64,000 nucleotides of DNA from Arthrobacter sp. B1805 (GTDB taxonomy: Bacteria > Actinomycetota > Actinomycetes > Actinomycetales > Micrococcaceae): NCBI RefSeq assembly GCF_002929745.1, contig NZ_PJIQ01000002.1, positions 124,001-188,000 on the forward strand, read 5' to 3'. This document shows positions 21,988 through 29,515 of the stretch, piece by piece (position 1 is the stretch's first letter; the number at the start of each line of letters is the position of its first letter). The translations under genes and the position numbers were made by a program. Under the pieces are notes generated by a model. The model had not been told where the DNA came from and did not search any database. It was given only the letters and a program-made list of their open reading frames with translations.

Positions 21988-22044
21988 TATCACGTGGTCC
22001 TTTCGATGGTGAGAGGGCGGGCGGGCGACAGTGCACGCTCGATT

Positions 22045-22068
22045 TACATCGTTGTCTACATCGTTGTA
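22045..22068. promoter_or_regulatory. Tandem 12-base operator-like repeats upstream of GH43
   Basis: TACATCGTTGTC and TACATCGTTGTA stand head to tail with no gap, about 58 bases before the GH43 start. Each has TACA...TGT ends, like the operators of LacI-family sugar regulators. On the minus strand TTTACA (22066-22071) and TGTAAA (22044-22049) flank them with 16 bases between, so the repeats may sit inside the promoter. Repression relieved by arabinose or an oligosaccharide is a reasonable inference. Confidence 0.5.
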
Positions 22069-22191
22069 AAACAGTGCCACGCGGCCACCCGGTCCGTCAA
22101 GGGAGGGTCAGAACCGGAGTCCCAGAGCTGCTCATATTCTGCGCGGGATTGCGCGCGGGAATGCGGCCCTGAATGGCGGACGACGAGTGAA

Positions 22192-22848
22192 CTAGAGGGT
22201 AGCGACGCCGGCCCTCACTGCGAGCACCGCGAGCTGCACTCGTCCGGCCACATTGAGCTTCGCCATGATCTTCGTGATCTGGGCCTTCACGGTTGCCTCG
22301 CTGACATGCAACGCGCCTGCGATCTGGCCGTTCGTCCGACCCTCGGTCAGCGCGGACAGGATTGCGCGGTCACGGGCCGGCAGTCGCTTGATCAGCTGAA
22401 GCTCGGACGATTCAGCCGGTACCGCCGGCAGCGGAAACCGCTCGAGGTCGGGCGGCATGGAGAAGATGGCCTCACCACGATGGATCATCCGAATGGCCGC
22501 TCCCAGGTCGGACGAAACCGAATACTTGGAGAGGTAGCTGGCGGCGCCGGCCCGGTAGGCGTCGCACATGATGCCAAAATCGGTCGCGGAGGAGAGCATT
22601 GCAACCTTCACCTGCGGTGCGCGAGCTGAGATCTCCTGTACTGCCCGGACGCCATCGACGTTCCGCACCGTTGTCTCCATCAGGACGACGTCGGGTTTGA
22701 GGGCAAGCGCCTCCTTGATCGCGGCATCCCCGCTCGACGTGACAGATTCGAGCTCAATGTGCTCCAGGCCTTCAAATAGCCGTTCCACACCGAGGCGCAC
22801 CAGGTAGTCGTCGTCGACCAGATGTACCCGAAGAGTTTGTTGAGCCAA
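22192..22848 (-). CDS. NarL/LuxR-type response regulator with Glu at phosphoacceptor
   Basis: The 218-residue protein has an N-terminal receiver (RVHLVDDDYLVRLGVERLF) and a C-terminal LuxR helix-turn-helix (LPARDRAILSALTEGRTNGQIAGALHVSEATVKAQITKIM). The acidic pair (Asp12-14), Ser86-87 and Lys108 are in place, but where the phosphoacceptor Asp is expected (KPDVVLME) there is Glu58. It may thus act without phosphorylation. I start at TTG 22848, with GGAAGG about nine bases upstream; a frame from 22902 is less likely. No histidine kinase is nearby. It diverges from the large surface-protein gene and is the obvious candidate to control it. Confidence 0.85.
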   Translation of the reverse strand: MAQQTLRVHLVDDDYLVRLGVERLFEGLEHIELESVTSSGDAAIKEALALKPDVVLMETTVRNVDGVRAVQEISARAPQVKVAMLSSATDFGIMCDAYRAGAASYLSKYSVSSDLGAAIRMIHRGEAIFSMPPDLERFPLPAVPAESSELQLIKRLPARDRAILSALTEGRTNGQIAGALHVSEATVKAQITKIMAKLNVAGRVQLAVLAVRAGVATL

Positions 22849-23196
22849 AGTTGTAGCCTTCCCCCTGAACCGATGGCCCCCGCCATCGGCATAACAGATC
22901 AACCGCTTACTGCGGCTTCTCCGCCACGTGAGGGTTGTCCGAATAAGACGGGCACCCCAGCACCCGCCATAGCCTATCTGACTGGGAGATTGGACGATTG
23001 TCCATCAGTGCCCTGTGTTTCGCCGTCGCATTCCGCTGTGTAGTACGACGAGCACATACCCGGGTAGGTGAAAAGAATGACTGCTTCTCTAGATCAATTT
23101 ACCCGGTCGATTATCTCTGCCTGTCGTATTGCGTAGATAGCGTTCTGAGCGCCGCGTCCTGTCTTGGGCGCGCTTCTTCTTGATCAAGGAGCAGTT
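22849..23196. promoter_or_regulatory. 348-base divergent control region with inverted repeats
   Basis: This gap between the response regulator and the surface-protein gene is richer in A and T than its surroundings and has no gene. It holds three inverted repeats: CCGATGGC/GCCATCGG around four C at 22870-22889, TGGAC/GTCCA around GATT at 22991-23004, and the palindrome TACCCGGGTA at 23057-23066. The first could form a hairpin in the regulator's own leader. No clear -35/-10 pair was found for either gene. Confidence 0.45.
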
Positions 23197-26100
23197 TTGA
23201 CGTTACTTATAGGGGGGCCGCCTAAACGGCGGCATAGAAATACGATGAGGTTCTTGGCAGGAGGAGTTGTAGCGGGCCTTGCCCTGGCTCCGCTGCAGGG
23301 AGCGGTTGCCGCTCCTCTTCCCACTGATGAGAGTGCCGCGCGCGCCGAGGTCCTCAGCGGCTCGTTGTTCACCGGAATCGACCTGATCGGCCTTGGCCTT
23401 GCCGAGAGCGCATCCCCGAGCGATCCCGGACCAGATACATCTTCGCTCAATGCAAACGTGCTGAACGCAGTGCAGGTCGATCTCGGCACTGTCCGAGTTC
23501 CACTGCTGAACCCGGCTGGCGGAACGGGCGGCCTGCTATCGTTCGGCGAAGCCGGAGTGCTCAACAGTTTCGCGTCCTCACCATCGGCGACAACGTCGGT
23601 TGCTGCGGCTGGTGCTATCACCGCCGATGGTGCAATCGCTGTCTCTCCCGCCTCACAGGGGGACTCCGCATCCGTCAACCTCACACCCCTGCTGAGCCAG
23701 GTTGCCGGTGGTAGCGTTGTGGATCAGCTTTCGCTGGATCTCGGTGTGCTCGCGTCGCGGGCTGAGCAGAACGGAGCCGAGACGCCGACATCGGAGTACG
23801 TTGTTGCGGACGCGCAACTCCTCCTGCGCAGTCCCCTGGTCGGAACCCTGACCACGGACGTGTCCAGGACCGTCGACGGCCTGGCAGCAGCGCTCGGTAA
23901 CGCAGGCGCCGGCATCGAGCTGGATCTCTCGCTTCTCGGTCTCGCGAACGCGTCCGTCGGACCGGTCACCGTGACCGTGGACGGTGCAGGGGCAGCGCTG
24001 GACGCTGTCGTTGATCCGATTTTGGACACACCTCGAGTCAGCCCCGATGGACTCGTCACCGTCAACCTGCGGACTGGCGAGATCGCAGTCGACCTTGATG
24101 CTCTTGGTCTCAACGGTCGTCCGGCCAACACTCAGGTGCTGACAGCAGCGGACATCAACCGGATCACGGCCGCCGTGACCCAGGTGCTGACCGACGCGGT
24201 CGCCGAGATCAATACGGGAATCACCCGAGTCGTTCCCACACTGGGAGTCACGGTCACTGCAGGCGTAGAGGTCGACTCTTTGCTTCCCCTGGTCCCCAGC
24301 CTCACAGGTTCGGCAACCCTCACGGGAACGCTCGGAGGATTCACCGGCACCCCCGGTGCAGTTGCGCCGACTGTCGCGGTGAACATCGCGGGCCTGGACG
24401 CAAACCTGACCACGGCTCTCTCCGGCCTCCTGACCACGAACCTGGTCTCGGCGATCGGTACAGCCCTGAACAGCACCCTGACCAACACAACCGCCGGCCT
24501 CACGACTTTCGTGAACCAGACGGTAGGCGCGCTGTCGCCGGGTCTTGCGACGGTACTCTCCGAGGTCGTCCGACTGGTGGTCAACGAGCAGCCCACGCCG
24601 GGAATCCTCGGTGAGGATTCCTTCACCGTGAGCGCACTCGCTGTGACGCTGCTGCCTCGACTGGACGCGGTCTCGCTTCGCTTAGCTACCTCCAGCGTCC
24701 TCGCTTCGGCGGTCGACAACCCCGGTGACAACCCGGGCGACAACACCGGAGTCAACACTGCCGACAACACGACTGTGAACACGGCGGATAACACCGCTGT
24801 CCTGGGTGACGTCAACGGTGCGGACAACACTTCGGTGCTCGGTGCGATCAATGGCGCTGACAACACTGCTGTGGCTGGTGCGATCAATGGCGCTGACAAC
24901 ACTGCTGTGGCTGGTGCCATCAACGGTGCCGACAACACGACTGTGAACACGGCTGACAACACTGCAGTTCTGGGTGACGTGAACGGTGCGGACAACACTT
25001 CGGTGCTCGGTGCGATCAATGGCGCTGACAACACTGCTGTGGCTGGTGCCATCAACACTGCCGACAACACGACTGTGAACACGGCTGATAACACCGCTGT
25101 CCTGGGTGAAGTCAACGGTGCGGACAACACTTCGGTGCTCGGCGCGATCAACGGCGCTGACAACACTGCTGTGGCTGGTGCCATCAACACTGCCGACAAC
25201 ACGACAGTGAACACGGCTGATAACACCGCTGTCCTGGGTGAAGTCAACGGTGCGGACAACACTTCGGTGCTCGGCGCGATCAACGGTGCCGACAACACTG
25301 CTGTGGCTGGTGCCATCAATGGCGCCGACAACACGACAGTGAACACGGCGGATAACACCGCTGTCCTGGGTGACGTCAACGGTGCGGACAACACTGCAGT
25401 TCTGGGTGACGTGAACGGCGCGGACAACACTTCGGTGCTCGGTGCGATCAATGGCGCTGACAACACTGCTGTGGCTGGTGCCATCAACGGTGCCGACAAC
25501 ACGACTGTGAACACGGCTGACAACACTGCAGTCCTGGGTGACGTGAACGGCGCGGACAACACTTCGGTGCTCGGTGCGATCAACGGTGCCGACAACACTG
25601 CTGTGGCTGGTGCCATCAACGGTGCCGACAACACGACTGTGAACACGGCTGACAACACTGCAGTCCTGGGTGACGTGAACGGCGCGGACAACACTTCGGT
25701 GCTCGGTGCGATCAACGGTGCCGACAACACTGCTGTGGCTGGTGCCATCAACGGTGCCGACAACACGACTGTGAACACGGCTGACAACACTGCAGTCCTG
25801 GGTGACGTGAACGGCGCGGACAACACTTCGGTGCTCGGTGCGATCAACGGTGCCGAGAACACTGCTGTGGCTGGTGCTATCAACGGCGCTGACAACACTG
25901 CTGTGGCTGGTGCTATCAACGGTGCCGACAACACTGCAGTGCTGGGTGCTATCAACGGCGCTGACAACACTGCTGTGGCTGGTGCTATCAACGGTGCCGA
26001 CAACACTGCAGTGCTGGGTGCTATCAACGGCGCTGACAACACGGCTGTAGCTGGCGGCGTCAACGGTGGGGACAATCCTGCTGAGAATCCTGCGGTCAAC

Positions 26101-26487
26101 CCTGCTGAGAACCCTTCGGTCAACCCGGCGGACAACCCTGCTGAGAACCCGGCCGACAACGGTGCTGACAACACGGCTGACAACACGGCTGACAACACGG
26201 CTGACAACACGGCTGACAACACGCTCGATAACACAGCTGACAACACGGCTGTGACCGGTGCCGATAACGCAGCGGTGAACCCCGCAACGAACGGCGCTAC
26301 CAACACCGCCACGACGCCGTCCCTGAATGGCGTCACGGACACCAAGCGGGGTGCCCTCACCGGCGCCCAGCTCGTCCACACAGGCGCTGAAGGAGTCCTT
26401 CCCCTCGTGGGCTTCGGCATCCTGCTCCTCCTGGCCGGCATCGCCGGATTGGTCCTGAGCAAGCGTCGCAACCAGGCACGCGCCTAA
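23197..26487 (+). CDS. Repeat-rich secreted surface protein with LVHTG anchor (choice-of-anchor G-like)
   Basis: The 1096-residue product starts at TTG 23197, which has AAGGAG five bases upstream. A basic n-region (PPKRRHRNT) and a hydrophobic stretch ending QGAVA|AP form a signal peptide. Residues about 40-505 are a Gly/Ala/Thr/Val-rich, beta-rich domain (for example LFTGIDLIGLGLAE and EYVVADAQLLLRSPLVG) resembling the choice-of-anchor G proteins. Residues 528-955 are DNT repeats, followed by Asn-Pro and ADNT stretches. The end has LVHTG at 1059, a membrane helix and KRRNQARA, a sortase-type sorting signal. No sortase gene is in the window. It is the first gene of a likely unit with the two membrane-protein genes that follow. 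Confidence 0.85.
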   Translation: MTLLIGGPPKRRHRNTMRFLAGGVVAGLALAPLQGAVAAPLPTDESAARAEVLSGSLFTGIDLIGLGLAESASPSDPGPDTSSLNANVLNAVQVDLGTVRVPLLNPAGGTGGLLSFGEAGVLNSFASSPSATTSVAAAGAITADGAIAVSPASQGDSASVNLTPLLSQVAGGSVVDQLSLDLGVLASRAEQNGAETPTSEYVVADAQLLLRSPLVGTLTTDVSRTVDGLAAALGNAGAGIELDLSLLGLANASVGPVTVTVDGAGAALDAVVDPILDTPRVSPDGLVTVNLRTGEIAVDLDALGLNGRPANTQVLTAADINRITAAVTQVLTDAVAEINTGITRVVPTLGVTVTAGVEVDSLLPLVPSLTGSATLTGTLGGFTGTPGAVAPTVAVNIAGLDANLTTALSGLLTTNLVSAIGTALNSTLTNTTAGLTTFVNQTVGALSPGLATVLSEVVRLVVNEQPTPGILGEDSFTVSALAVTLLPRLDAVSLRLATSSVLASAVDNPGDNPGDNTGVNTADNTTVNTADNTAVLGDVNGADNTSVLGAINGADNTAVAGAINGADNTAVAGAINGADNTTVNTADNTAVLGDVNGADNTSVLGAINGADNTAVAGAINTADNTTVNTADNTAVLGEVNGADNTSVLGAINGADNTAVAGAINTADNTTVNTADNTAVLGEVNGADNTSVLGAINGADNTAVAGAINGADNTTVNTADNTAVLGDVNGADNTAVLGDVNGADNTSVLGAINGADNTAVAGAINGADNTTVNTADNTAVLGDVNGADNTSVLGAINGADNTAVAGAINGADNTTVNTADNTAVLGDVNGADNTSVLGAINGADNTAVAGAINGADNTTVNTADNTAVLGDVNGADNTSVLGAINGAENTAVAGAINGADNTAVAGAINGADNTAVLGAINGADNTAVAGAINGADNTAVLGAINGADNTAVAGGVNGGDNPAENPAVNPAENPSVNPADNPAENPADNGADNTADNTADNTADNTADNTLDNTADNTAVTGADNAAVNPATNGATNTATTPSLNGVTDTKRGALTGAQLVHTGAEGVLPLVGFGILLLLAGIAGLVLSKRRNQARA
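24778..26061 (+). repeat. In-frame tandem repeats: 31 units of 36 bp and 7 of 24 bp
   Basis: The 1284 bases divide exactly into 31 twelve-codon units (consensus N-G/T-A-D-N-T-x-V-x-G-x-I/V) and 7 eight-codon units (N-G/T-A-D-N-T-T-V). A higher-order unit of 132 bases (12+12+8+12 codons) recurs with copies starting at 25417, 25549, 25681 and 25813 that are almost identical, so the array has expanded recently. It encodes residues 528-955 of the surface protein. Confidence 0.95.
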
Positions 26488-26513
26488 CCAGGAACGCGTC
26501 CAGCTGGAACAAA

Positions 26514-26547
26514 CCATGGCGGCAGGGGACAACCCTTGCCGCCATGG
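26514..26547 (+). terminator. Hairpin between surface-protein gene and next gene
   Basis: CCATGGCGGCA and TGCCGCCATGG form a perfect 11-base stem that extends by GGG/CCC after one mismatch, around ACAA, and is followed by CTTTGT. It lies 27 bases after the surface-protein stop. As the next gene starts 62 bases later on the same strand, it may be a partial terminator that lowers downstream expression. Confidence 0.65.
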
Positions 26548-26608
26548 CTTTGTCTCGGCCCCCCCTCACACACGCCCCTTCCCTTTCCCATCTCCAGAGA
26601 GCAAAGCA

Positions 26609-27361
26609 GTGAGCTCACCACGCATCCGAAAGATCCCCGCCATCGTCCTCCTCGTTGGAGTCCTGATCGGCGGCGGCCACATGGCGGCAACTCTCGCCTT
26701 CACCGGACCGCAGACTCCCTTGAAGCAGTCCCTGCAGCCGGGCCTCAACCGGTATTTCCTGGGTCCGCTGGACCAGGGCTGGAACCTGTTCGCGCCGGGC
26801 GTCTACTCACAGGACGAGTACATGCTCGTTCGGGCGTGCATCAGCCCGGCAGAGGTCTGCGCGGGCGGCGACGCGGCCGGCGCCGAGTTCACCGAGTGGC
26901 GGAACGTCAGCGAGGAGGAAGCCCCTCCTGCGGCTCTTCGGACAATCGCCAACCGTGAGCACCGGCAATCCAAAGTCATCAACAGCCGTTTCTGGCCTAC
27001 GGCTTCTGCCCTGTCGCCGGACTACCGTCAGATGGCCGAAGCGAACCACCTCGACCAGGAACCCGTCTTCGGCGTGGACCTCGATTCCGAGGAAGCAGCC
27101 GACACCATCGCGGCCGACCAGCTTAACAAGCTGCGGACCTACCAGCGCATGGAGGACGTCGCCGTAGGCTTCGCCTCGCTGTATGCGCTACACACCTGGG
27201 GCGAGGAAGCATCGCTTGTCGAGGTGCGTATGCGCCGGGATGCCGTCGTTCCCTTCGAGCAGCGTCACGACGCCTCAGCCGAACCCACCCAGAGCTTCAT
27301 GAACATCGGCTGGCGCAGCGTCATGCCCTTCAGCGAGGAGACCCGAAACGCATGGCTGTAA
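26609..27361 (+). CDS. Single-pass membrane protein, DUF5819-like (SdpA-like)
   Basis: The 250-residue protein has one N-terminal membrane helix (IPAIVLLVGVLIGGGHMAAT) and a soluble, probably outward-facing domain containing LGPLDQGWNLFAPGVYSQDEYMLVRA, a phrase typical of DUF5819. The function is not established. Its partner, the HTTM gene, overlaps it by ten bases, so the two are translationally coupled; DUF5819 and HTTM genes commonly pair, and the pairing recalls SdpA and SdpB in Bacillus. I start at GTG 26609; an upstream in-frame ATG at 26516 falls inside the preceding hairpin. The ribosome site is weak (AGAGAG). Confidence 0.7.
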   Translation: MSSPRIRKIPAIVLLVGVLIGGGHMAATLAFTGPQTPLKQSLQPGLNRYFLGPLDQGWNLFAPGVYSQDEYMLVRACISPAEVCAGGDAAGAEFTEWRNVSEEEAPPAALRTIANREHRQSKVINSRFWPTASALSPDYRQMAEANHLDQEPVFGVDLDSEEAADTIAADQLNKLRTYQRMEDVAVGFASLYALHTWGEEASLVEVRMRRDAVVPFEQRHDASAEPTQSFMNIGWRSVMPFSEETRNAWL

Positions 27362-28473
27362 CATCCCCTCCTCGATCGGCGGCGGCCGCCGAAGACCGCC
27401 CCATCCGATCCTGGGTGCGCGCGCACCGGAACAAACCGTCCGAATGGCTGCTCGGGCTATCCTCCTGGTTCGTGGCCGACCGCCACGGTTCCTACGGCCT
27501 GGCCGTGATGAGAATCGTTTCCGGCAGCCTCGTACTCGCATGGCTCCTGGTGAACCTTCCGGTAGCAGAGCGCATCTGGGGCCCCGGCTCGGCCTATTGG
27601 GAGCCCCACCGCAACGTCATCGGCTACATGTGGCCGCTCGATCTGCTGCGGAACGCCGGCAGCGGCGCCTTCTGGGCCTGGTACGTCATCACGATCGCGC
27701 TGGTCATCGCATTCATCCTCGGGTGGCGCACACGCTTCATCACGCCCCTGCTGTTCGTGTTCTATGCAGGCATCAACGCACAAAACACCGTGATTGCCGA
27801 CGGCGGCAACTATTTCATCCGCATCATGCTCATCTACCTGGTCTTCGCGGACATCTCAAGGAGATGGTCGCTGGATGCCAGGCGGCGAGCCCGGGAGTCC
27901 TCGCCGGAGACCCAGACTGGCTCAGTGCTGCACAACCTCGCGCTCTGCATGGTCATCGCTCAACTCTGCCTCGTCTACTTCGAGGCCGGCATGTACAAGG
28001 TGCAGGGCACCGCCTGGCAGAACGGCACCGCGGTCTACTACCCACTCGCGTCCGAAACGTACGGAGCGCTTCCCTGGCTCTCGGGAGCTCTGACGTTCTT
28101 CACCTGGGCAACGGTCCTGGCGACCTACTTCACGGTGATCATCCAGATCGCCTTCCCGTTCCTGCTGTTCAATAAGGTGACCCGGCGCATCACGCTGCTC
28201 GGGATCCTGGCGATGCACCTCGGAATCGCGATCGCGATGGGCCTGCCGTTCTTCTCGGGAATCATGGCCTCGGCCGATGCAGTCCTGGTCGGCAGCGCCA
28301 CCTGGCTTGCGATTCAGCGCTGGGGCGCTGGTGCGCTGCAGAAGCGGACTGCCAAGCTGGGCATCCGACGAGGAGTACCAGCAACCGTACCGTCTGCATC
28401 AGTGCCGGCGCTCGACACCGATGTGGTTGCTAACCCGCGCACCGAGGATCGCGCTTTGGTAAGCAGGCGCTGA
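27352..28473 (+). CDS. HTTM-domain membrane protein (SdpB / VKGC-like)
   Basis: This 373-residue integral membrane protein has several hydrophobic helices. Family features are the first helix (YGLAVMRIVSGSLVLAWLLV), WGPGSAYWEP, GWRTRFITPLLFVFYAGINAQN, and MVIAQLCLVYFEAGMYKVQGTAWQNGTAVYYPL, a conserved HTTM block (split here by eye at residues 200-235). HTTM includes the membrane part of vitamin K-dependent carboxylase and Bacillus SdpB, needed to mature the SdpC toxin. Here the likely client is the surface protein encoded two genes upstream; that is inference. Its ATG overlaps the preceding stop. Confidence 0.82.
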   Translation: MAVTSPPRSAAAAEDRPIRSWVRAHRNKPSEWLLGLSSWFVADRHGSYGLAVMRIVSGSLVLAWLLVNLPVAERIWGPGSAYWEPHRNVIGYMWPLDLLRNAGSGAFWAWYVITIALVIAFILGWRTRFITPLLFVFYAGINAQNTVIADGGNYFIRIMLIYLVFADISRRWSLDARRRARESSPETQTGSVLHNLALCMVIAQLCLVYFEAGMYKVQGTAWQNGTAVYYPLASETYGALPWLSGALTFFTWATVLATYFTVIIQIAFPFLLFNKVTRRITLLGILAMHLGIAIAMGLPFFSGIMASADAVLVGSATWLAIQRWGAGALQKRTAKLGIRRGVPATVPSASVPALDTDVVANPRTEDRALVSRR

Positions 28474-28513
28474 GGCGGACTGCCATGCCGCACGTCGTCG
28501 TCCGATCGATGCG

Positions 28514-29515
28514 TTACCCCTCGAGGACCGGATTCCCGAGTGTCCGCAGATAGTGAAGCGCTGCTGGAGCGTAGGTGCGCATCGACTCGTCGTCGGCGTA
28601 TACCAGCAGGCGCAACCACGAGCCGTACCGGTGCACCCCCGCCAGCTTCAGTGCCGGCTCGACGGCGGCCCTGAGGTCCTCGGATGGCGCATATGTTGTC
28701 CATCGGTCGAGATAGGCGGTGACCACCGACTGTATGCGTGGGTCCTCCGCCGTCGTGTTCCACTGCTCGCGCATCTGCGTGATCGGGACGAGCAGCGCGC
28801 TGAACGGGTGCGCCCAGTAGGAGTCCGCGAAATCGAAGAAACGCAACGAATCGTCGGGGCTCCCCGGCAGGAAGCAGTTCCGGGCGTGCAGGTCGTTGTG
28901 GTCGAGCGACAGAGGCACGGACACACCACGCAGGACGTCGACGGCCTCGTTGATGACCGGAAGCCGTCGTACGACGTCGTCCGCGTCCTCGGCCGACAGG
29001 TACAGCGGGTGCCCATCGGGAAGCCCGGTGTGCAGGAGCAACTGGTTCTCGACGAAGTTCGCTGCCACCTCGGGATTCATGATGACCAACCCGGCTTGCG
29101 AGAGCCGTTCTCCGTGCGGCGCGGCGAGCTGCTGCAGGTCGGCGAAGTCGGTTGCCACACGCGACCAGACGGAGGCCTCGTCCGATCCCAGCCTGTCGAG
29201 GGTGGCTCCATGATCCGCAGTGAGCATCCAGCCGCGCGAGGGCTCGATCGCCAGGGGAGCGGCGACATGATCCGGGGCGATTTCGCCCAGCAGCGACATG
29301 ATGGATGCTTCCGCGAGCTGTCCGAGGTTGTTCTCCTTGAACCACAGCGTCCCGTGATCCGTGGGCACCGTCAGCTGCGTGGACCAGAATCGGATGCGGG
29401 GCTGTTCGGAAGGACCGGTCCGGGACACTCCGAACGTCTCAAGCACGAGGTCGATCCACTGCTCCGCCTGCTGTCGCCACTCGGGGGAGGCCCAGGTCTG
29501 GCGGGGGTTGTTCAT
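28514..29515 (-). CDS. Aminoglycoside-phosphotransferase-fold kinase
   Basis: The 333-residue protein has the APH kinase fold. The catalytic loop is PLSLDHNDLHARNCFLPG (Asp and Asn of HxDxxxxN) and the metal-binding Asp lies in LRFFDFADSYWAHPF. A lysine for ATP is likely in LWFKENN. The family phosphorylates antibiotics, choline, thiamine or homoserine among others; nothing here shows which, and resistance should not be assumed. It is convergent with the HTTM gene, 40 bases apart, and 55 bases from a permease gene on the same strand. No strong ribosome site precedes the ATG. Confidence 0.85.
   Translation of the reverse strand: MNNPRQTWASPEWRQQAEQWIDLVLETFGVSRTGPSEQPRIRFWSTQLTVPTDHGTLWFKENNLGQLAEASIMSLLGEIAPDHVAAPLAIEPSRGWMLTADHGATLDRLGSDEASVWSRVATDFADLQQLAAPHGERLSQAGLVIMNPEVAANFVENQLLLHTGLPDGHPLYLSAEDADDVVRRLPVINEAVDVLRGVSVPLSLDHNDLHARNCFLPGSPDDSLRFFDFADSYWAHPFSALLVPITQMREQWNTTAEDPRIQSVVTAYLDRWTTYAPSEDLRAAVEPALKLAGVHRYGSWLRLLVYADDESMRTYAPAALHYLRTLGNPVLEG

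Follow-up and report, generated by a model that had tools for sequence, protein, structure and literature searches.

A tetrapeptide-phased stalk in a predicted wall-anchored surface protein and the association of stalk type with the class of an HTTM membrane protein

Across many species, the kind of repeat that makes up the stalk of a predicted surface protein goes together with the class of the HTTM membrane protein. The case described here is a repeat array in a 64,000-nucleotide stretch of the Arthrobacter sp. B1805 genome (the window), located in a gene that is followed by genes for a DUF5819 protein and an HTTM protein. The correspondence between stalk type and HTTM class suggests that this pair processes or modifies the stalk. 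In our judgement, the array probably forms the stalk of a surface protein anchored by sortase, and the DUF5819-HTTM pair acts on it with specificity for the type of repeat; secretion, anchoring, and the action of the pair on the stalk are each steps that we infer. Taken alone, the array is one more low-complexity stalk, a variant of a known stalk kind. What merits further work is the stalk-HTTM match, which offers a testable substrate for bacterial HTTM proteins encoded beside surface proteins.

Read in the D-N-T phase, the array extends from 24787 to 26070 on the plus strand. The first-pass annotation had placed it at 24778-26061 (residues 528-955 counted from the TTG at 23197), which is the identical array shifted nine bases to the left, and its composition is confirmed: 31 units of 12 codons and 7 units of 8 codons, that is 31 units of 36 bases and 7 of 24, fill the 1284 bases exactly, with a remainder of 0 and an unbroken frame. 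The commonest unit types are DNTSVLGAINGA (8 copies), DNTAVAGAINGA (8), DNTAVLGDVNGA (7), and DNTTVNTA (7), besides which five rarer types occur. The 8-residue units lie 44, 44, 44, 56, 44, and 44 residues apart, and the 132-base superunit is made up of three 12-residue units and one 8-residue unit, with a single exception of 168 bases. At the array, Tandem Repeats Finder gives periods of 36, 132, 300, and 432. The entire tetrapeptide-phased stalk reaches beyond the array on both sides, from 24715 to approximately 26270 on the plus strand. Every Asn-Asn spacing in the stalk is a multiple of four, in a count of 101 spacings as in one of 98 over 525 residues, and the best of 1000 residue shuffles of the stalk reached 31%, which excludes chance. 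The quantum of the stalk is the tetrapeptide, and not the unit of twelve. Between 12-mers, pS is 0.48 and pN 0.11 (pooled over pairs that are non-independent), and the ratio of 0.23 indicates that the amino acids are held. Two long minus-strand open reading frames over the array (779 and 616 aa) are presumably mirror frames of the GC-rich repeat and were set aside.

The stalks of related loci were typed by composition, with thresholds set by us, as NT (the window's kind), DG (D-G-T-E), or one of two alanine-rich kinds. The Asn phase of four residues is kept at 90% or more in 12 of 14 NT relatives; it reaches 75% in L104, and L088 is too short. The relatives' stalks consist of mixed N-T-x-x tetrads, with four-residue steps in varying number. 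In the window, a middle tetrad, L-G-D-V, L-G-A-I, or A-G-A-I, turns the unit into one of 12 residues, and none of these tetrads occurs in the eight relatives' stalks viewed, which are plain mixed tetrads. As the stalk of L109 is also of this mixed kind, the window's 12-residue unit seems to have been elaborated locally from a stalk of tetrapeptides. A class-wide search for N-T tetrads matched 5 of 394 genomes besides the window's own (best E 1.6e-6), and the family-wide search also matched G003 and contig C13 of G099, both outside the loci analysed. In L085 and L072 the frame is broken within the N-T stalk and the tetrads resume in another frame, by sequencing error or slippage.

Repeat expansion is visible at the level of the superunits. 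Two identical ones stand in tandem at 25495..25758 (plus strand, 132 of 132 bases), and the superunit that follows at 25759 matches at 128 of 132. Four near-identical 132-base blocks had been proposed at 25417, 25549, 25681, and 25813; the first three hold (129, 129, and 132 of 132), whereas the fourth matches at only 101-104 of 132. The greater drift seen at the left end is real: when blocks are compared in the phase of the 8-residue units, those on the left (24931, 25063, and 25195) match those on the right at 117-125 of 132, and the right blocks match among themselves at 128-132. Identical neighbouring superunits, together with very unequal lengths in close relatives, support the in-frame expansion that had been suggested. 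Indeed, L089 and L090, both on 3.6-Mb contigs and with 85% identity in their N-terminal regions, have longest in-phase Asn chains of 136 vs. 61. Gain and loss of stalk length would come from recombination among in-frame units of 4n residues that are nearly identical. The copy number of the array in this 79-contig draft assembly is uncertain, since the longest exact internal repeat measures 266 bases and a short-read draft may misstate it. Such stalks assemble poorly, as 15 of 53 fetched loci remain open to the contig end inside the stalk gene.

The gene that contains the array encodes a choice-of-anchor G surface protein of 1096 aa (23197..26487, plus strand). Its reading frame is also listed from an earlier TTG; the TTG at 23197, behind a ribosome-binding sequence AAGGAG at 23186-23191, is likely the true start, and similarity to L109 begins at the first residues of the window protein so defined. 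A signal peptide region was recognized by eye at 23197..23313 (plus strand), with a basic start, a hydrophobic stretch, and AVAA. The choice-of-anchor G domain follows at 23326..24138 (plus strand, positions 1-283 of NF033766), and the match covers the full profile with E 7.4e-61 and 206.6 bits, above the membership cut-off of 45 bits. At the other end, a cell wall sorting signal is found at 26371..26484 (plus strand), made of LVHTG, a hydrophobic segment, and a basic tail; it matches our sorting-signal model A2, of whose 14 rows the window's tail is itself one, with E 5.2e-14. The pentapeptide LVHTG departs from the LAxTG of class E substrates, which is present in 15 of the 17 tails viewed; L077 has LVNTG. 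The 1096-aa protein contains no cysteine. A class E sortase (NF033747, E 1.8e-69) is encoded about 57 kb from the stalk gene, the class being that of the one gene scanned among six sortase-domain genes of the genome. According to the mechanism that we propose, the protein would be secreted, sorted via its C-terminal LVHTG, and joined to the cell wall, with this class E sortase as the most likely enzyme, and the stalk would carry the choice-of-anchor G domain outward. Of the 38 genomes of the genus, 4 (the window's own included) encode the choice-of-anchor G family, as do 64 of 295 genomes of the taxonomic family. L109, the closest relative found, shares 59% identity over 482 residues of the N-terminal region; a separate scan of genome contigs with the N-terminal domain gave no relative. 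Upstream of the stalk gene, on the minus strand at 22192-22902, lies what we label a LuxR-type regulator gene, relatives of which are present in 27 of the 53 fetched loci.

Two genes follow on the plus strand. The first, at 26516..27361, encodes a DUF5819 protein (PF19136, E 1.2e-13) with an SdpA-like N-terminal part; its true start is probably further in than 26516. The second, at 27352..28473, overlaps it and encodes an HTTM or SdpB-like membrane protein of 373 aa. The latter matches PF05090 (E 2.6e-11) and TIGR04033 (SdpB; E 3.1e-20), in this last case with 72.9 bits, below the cut-off of 178.4. An alignment of 14 HTTMs (A1), from which L099 was dropped for a stop in its stretch, was compared as a profile with the vitamin K-dependent gamma-carboxylase (GGCX; 758-residue chain 13ib_A), giving E 3.9e-10 over 213 positions. 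A Lys invariant in 14 of 14 HTTMs (216 in the window protein) aligns to Lys218 of 13ib_A. We take Lys218 and His160 of GGCX to be catalytic residues. For the DUF5819 protein, comparison with the SdpA of L179 revealed a common membrane segment and a Q-G-W-x-x-F motif (51 columns, P 6e-5, probability 65%), and the SdpA model matched none of the three DUF5819 proteins tested (maximum E 10). The main text of PMC5343777 contains no mention of Lys218, K218, or His160. What we label SdpC-like genes stand beside HTTM genes in L177, L179, and L180, so that SDP-like systems are present in the taxonomic family.

Between the stalk gene and the DUF5819 gene, a hairpin with a 15-pair stem lies at 26514..26547 (plus strand), a candidate attenuator or terminator. 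When the window's spacer was shuffled 300 times, 15 pairs were never reached, and a hairpin of 10-21 pairs is found at this place in 17 of 18 loci, the sequence differing and the position being kept. It may lower the expression of the pair relative to that of the surface protein. Rfam gave no match at 22000-29000, and no sigma-70-like promoter was found at 22700-28900.

The surroundings of the stalk gene were compared in 53 fetched loci, which correspond to 51 of 80 family-wide places (the window's own apart) plus G032 and G030. Genes for DUF5819 and HTTM lie downstream in all nine NT-stalk loci whose contig continues, and the same is true of 10 loci with another stalk type. Both genes are missing from 18 further loci, all non-NT, in which 1600 bases or more of sequence follow the frame. 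Thirty-five loci entered the comparison of trees, which leaves aside HTTM loci without a stalk, as well as L183 (no choice-of-anchor G domain), G254 (whose stalk fails the filter), and G131 (several paralogues). On the HTTM tree, the NT type requires 1 change and the three stalk types 2, the minimum possible, NT stalks being all on one side of a single branch with support 100; these trees were quick ones, and long branches in the HTTM tree triggered a program warning. On the tree of N-terminal domains, the same characters require 7 and 11 changes, NT being still clustered, as only 3 of 500 shuffles give so low a value. The nearest HTTM neighbour shares the stalk type in 29 of 35 loci, all six misses being between the two alanine-rich types, and the nearest N-terminal neighbour in 17 of 35. 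The partial rank correlation of stalk with HTTM given the N-terminus is 0.41 (0 of 2000 permutations), that of stalk with N-terminus given HTTM is 0.24 (1 of 2000), and that of HTTM with N-terminus given the stalk is 0.04. In 16 of the 35 loci, N-terminus and HTTM come from two places of one genome, and their joining is doubtful for G128, G145, G108, and G159. Restricting the comparison to the 19 loci in which one stretch carries all the genes, and which do not include these four, leaves the outcome unchanged: stalk type is shared with the nearest HTTM neighbour in 19 of 19 loci and with the nearest N-terminal neighbour in 11 of 19, and the changes required number 1 and 2 on the HTTM tree vs. 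3 and 5 on the N-terminal tree. Individual pairs of loci illustrate the point. G087 (NT) and G060, like G110 (NT) and L099, have N-termini 81% identical and unlike stalks; L072 (NT) and L073 (DG) have N-termini 59% identical. In each case, the HTTMs sort by stalk. Identity among the HTTMs of NT loci is 56% or more, and their identity to other HTTMs does not exceed 40%.

The same relationship is found in wider samples. Among 295 genomes, a full-length HTTM of the window's class is present in 15, and exactly these 15 were typed as NT, G254 being counted as NT on three tetrads only. G086 and G219 carry truncated HTTMs of this class, have no choice-of-anchor G match, and lack DUF5819 in the fetched stretch. 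A set of 80 named loci, the top 80 among 564 in order of similarity to the HTTM of the window, was typed with thresholds slightly lower than those of the 35 loci (L211 passes only the lower ones). Within these best 80 of 564, NT stalks are found in all eight loci of class A that include DUF5819, four repeating the first set and four being new, the latter all from Brachybacterium; none of the 40 other stalks is NT. Of the remaining loci in this set, 3 have a tail without an 80-residue stalk and 29 have no LxxTG reading frame upstream.

This pattern could also arise by linkage only, if stalk, DUF5819, and HTTM genes were exchanged as a block, with breakpoints at the border between N-terminal domain and stalk, and if the job of the pair lay elsewhere at the surface; we regard this as possible, yet rather unlikely. 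It accords with the contiguity of class A loci, with N-terminal domains that have clearly been swapped between stalk types, and with the occurrence of pairs without stalks. Moreover, linkage to the stalk holds for every intact NT-class pair recovered with its gene end, and exchange of contiguous blocks would thus yield the NT part of the pattern. However, there is not one mismatch of NT with another type among the 35 loci or the 48 stalk-bearing loci of the best 80 of 564, and the match persists where the genes are apart, these cases being limited to alanine-rich and DG stalks. In G295, an HTTM of the DG class and a DG-stalk protein, the sole sorting-signal hit of the genome at a threshold of E 0.01, are on separate contigs. 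For the alanine-rich stalks, 25 genomes without a stalk gene found upstream of the pair were considered, namely those of 24 of the 29 named loci lacking an upstream LxxTG reading frame and that of L230 (left out were L212, L237, L239, L266, and L273, of which L237 and L273 have an in-locus stalk protein). The choice-of-anchor G family is encoded in 20 of these 25, and in 15 of the 20 the portion of sequence examined shows the alanine-rich stalk expected from the HTTM class, in 13 cases not adjacent to the pair; in the other two, G699 and G700, the stalk gene seems adjacent after all. Separation on one chromosome is plain for G713 and G723, the other apart cases being drafts. L328 has an E-T-E-A-A stalk with an alanine-class HTTM in the genome, L323 and L327 show no alanine-rich stalk in the portion of sequence examined, and two more of the 20 are cut off. 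Finally, an alanine-class HTTM in L183 adjoins an alanine-rich stalk protein devoid of a choice-of-anchor G domain. Together, G295, the alanine-rich genomes with genes apart, and L183 argue against linkage as the full explanation.

A choice-of-anchor G protein was not found in 5 of the 25 genomes with the pair, and the pair of L174 is likewise without a stalk protein. L168-L172, five genomes of one genus, carry a DUF5819-HTTM pair and no low-complexity stalk protein that could be found; in four of the five, the pair stands beside an apparent ABC transporter, and another substrate is possible there. Conversely, L079, L100, L117, and L119 have a low-complexity stalk with no pair adjacent, HTTMs being encoded elsewhere in these genomes. 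The choice-of-anchor G gene beside the pair of L213 apparently ends otherwise than in LxxTG, with what look like cell-wall-binding repeats at the C-terminus. L092 and L182 lie on one contig about 0.36 Mb apart, the one with a choice-of-anchor G gene breaking off in an alanine-rich stalk and the other with a similar stalk end beside the pair; this split may reflect rearrangement within the repeats or misassembly.

Two further readings concern the stalk itself. Sortase substrates often carry disordered length spacers, and the array could be such a spacer, partnerless, under selection for length only, its composition arising by drift and slippage. The absence of a family match, the unequal array lengths in close relatives, and the low confidence of AlphaFold2 (run on 253 array residues as a single sequence, a weak test, with mean pLDDT 36.8 and no residue at 70 or more) are in line with this. 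Nevertheless, the pN/pS ratio between units, the four-residue phase kept in 12 of 14 NT relatives, and the correspondence between stalk type and HTTM class argue against it, and we consider it improbable. Still less credible to us is an ordered, ligand-binding stalk, the proposal of the first-pass annotation, in which the D-N-T tetrads would form a beta solenoid or bind calcium. The strict periodicity and the regular hydrophobic positions speak for order; on the other side stand the low pLDDT, with the same caveat of a weak test, the interruption of the 12-residue period by 8-residue units, the free mixing of tetrads in relatives, and sequence searches that gave no solved relative. A strict 12-residue rung fits neither the 8-residue units nor the variable four-residue steps of the relatives. 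For metal binding, glycosylation on Thr, and a beta solenoid, all three of which had been put forward, no support was obtained: the repeat's best Pfam match has E 0.044 and its best match to a PDB sequence E 0.64. AlphaFold2 on the DUF5819 protein, run without an alignment, gave pLDDT 35.0.

We therefore return to a pair acting on the stalk. DUF5819 (SdpA-like) and HTTM (like SdpB and vitamin K carboxylase) would form a membrane pair that processes, modifies, or folds the stalk during or after its secretion, with specificity for the repeat type. By analogy with SdpA and SdpB acting on SdpC, the pair would most likely act at the membrane, before or during anchoring. In view of the relationship between HTTM and GGCX, a quinone-linked modification of repeat residues is possible. 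A broader proposal, for now speculative and in our opinion doubtful, is that DUF5819-HTTM proteins are a family of membrane enzyme pairs, each class serving one kind of low-complexity surface stalk, whose repeats it would modify by quinone-dependent chemistry akin to vitamin K carboxylation. If true, Actinobacteria would possess a stalk repeat code read by a matching pair, and a substrate could be named for a branch of the HTTM superfamily that lacks an assigned role. These bacterial relatives of the vitamin K carboxylase are not known to have an assigned role. In the open-access literature searched, no paper contains the terms choice-of-anchor G or DUF5819, and none combines four of the terms SdpB, HTTM, sortase, surface protein, and maturation; as most subscription papers lie outside this literature, this is weak evidence of novelty.

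The window's protein and its neighbours can be compared with four known systems. Other choice-of-anchor G (NF033766) proteins have the same layout, with N-terminal domain, stalk, LxxTG, hydrophobic segment, and basic tail. In fibrillar adhesins and proteins with SD-repeat stalks, a repeat stalk likewise carries an N-terminal domain away from the wall; these are built of serine-aspartate repeats or folded domains, whereas the stalk of the window is built of the N-T-x-x tetrapeptide. With respect to GGCX, the HTTM match ends at residue 313 of 758, leaving the C-terminal part unmatched, and an invariant Gly of the HTTMs aligns to His160 of 13ib_A, so that the equivalent of this residue is lacking. 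In Bacillus subtilis, SdpA and SdpB are described as needed for the processing of SdpC (PMC6818787). The SdpABC gene order is found in L179, with a gene that we label SdpC-like, SdpA (SdpA model, E 1.5e-31), and HTTM. However, SdpC is a toxin precursor, whereas the supposed substrate here is a long wall-anchored protein.
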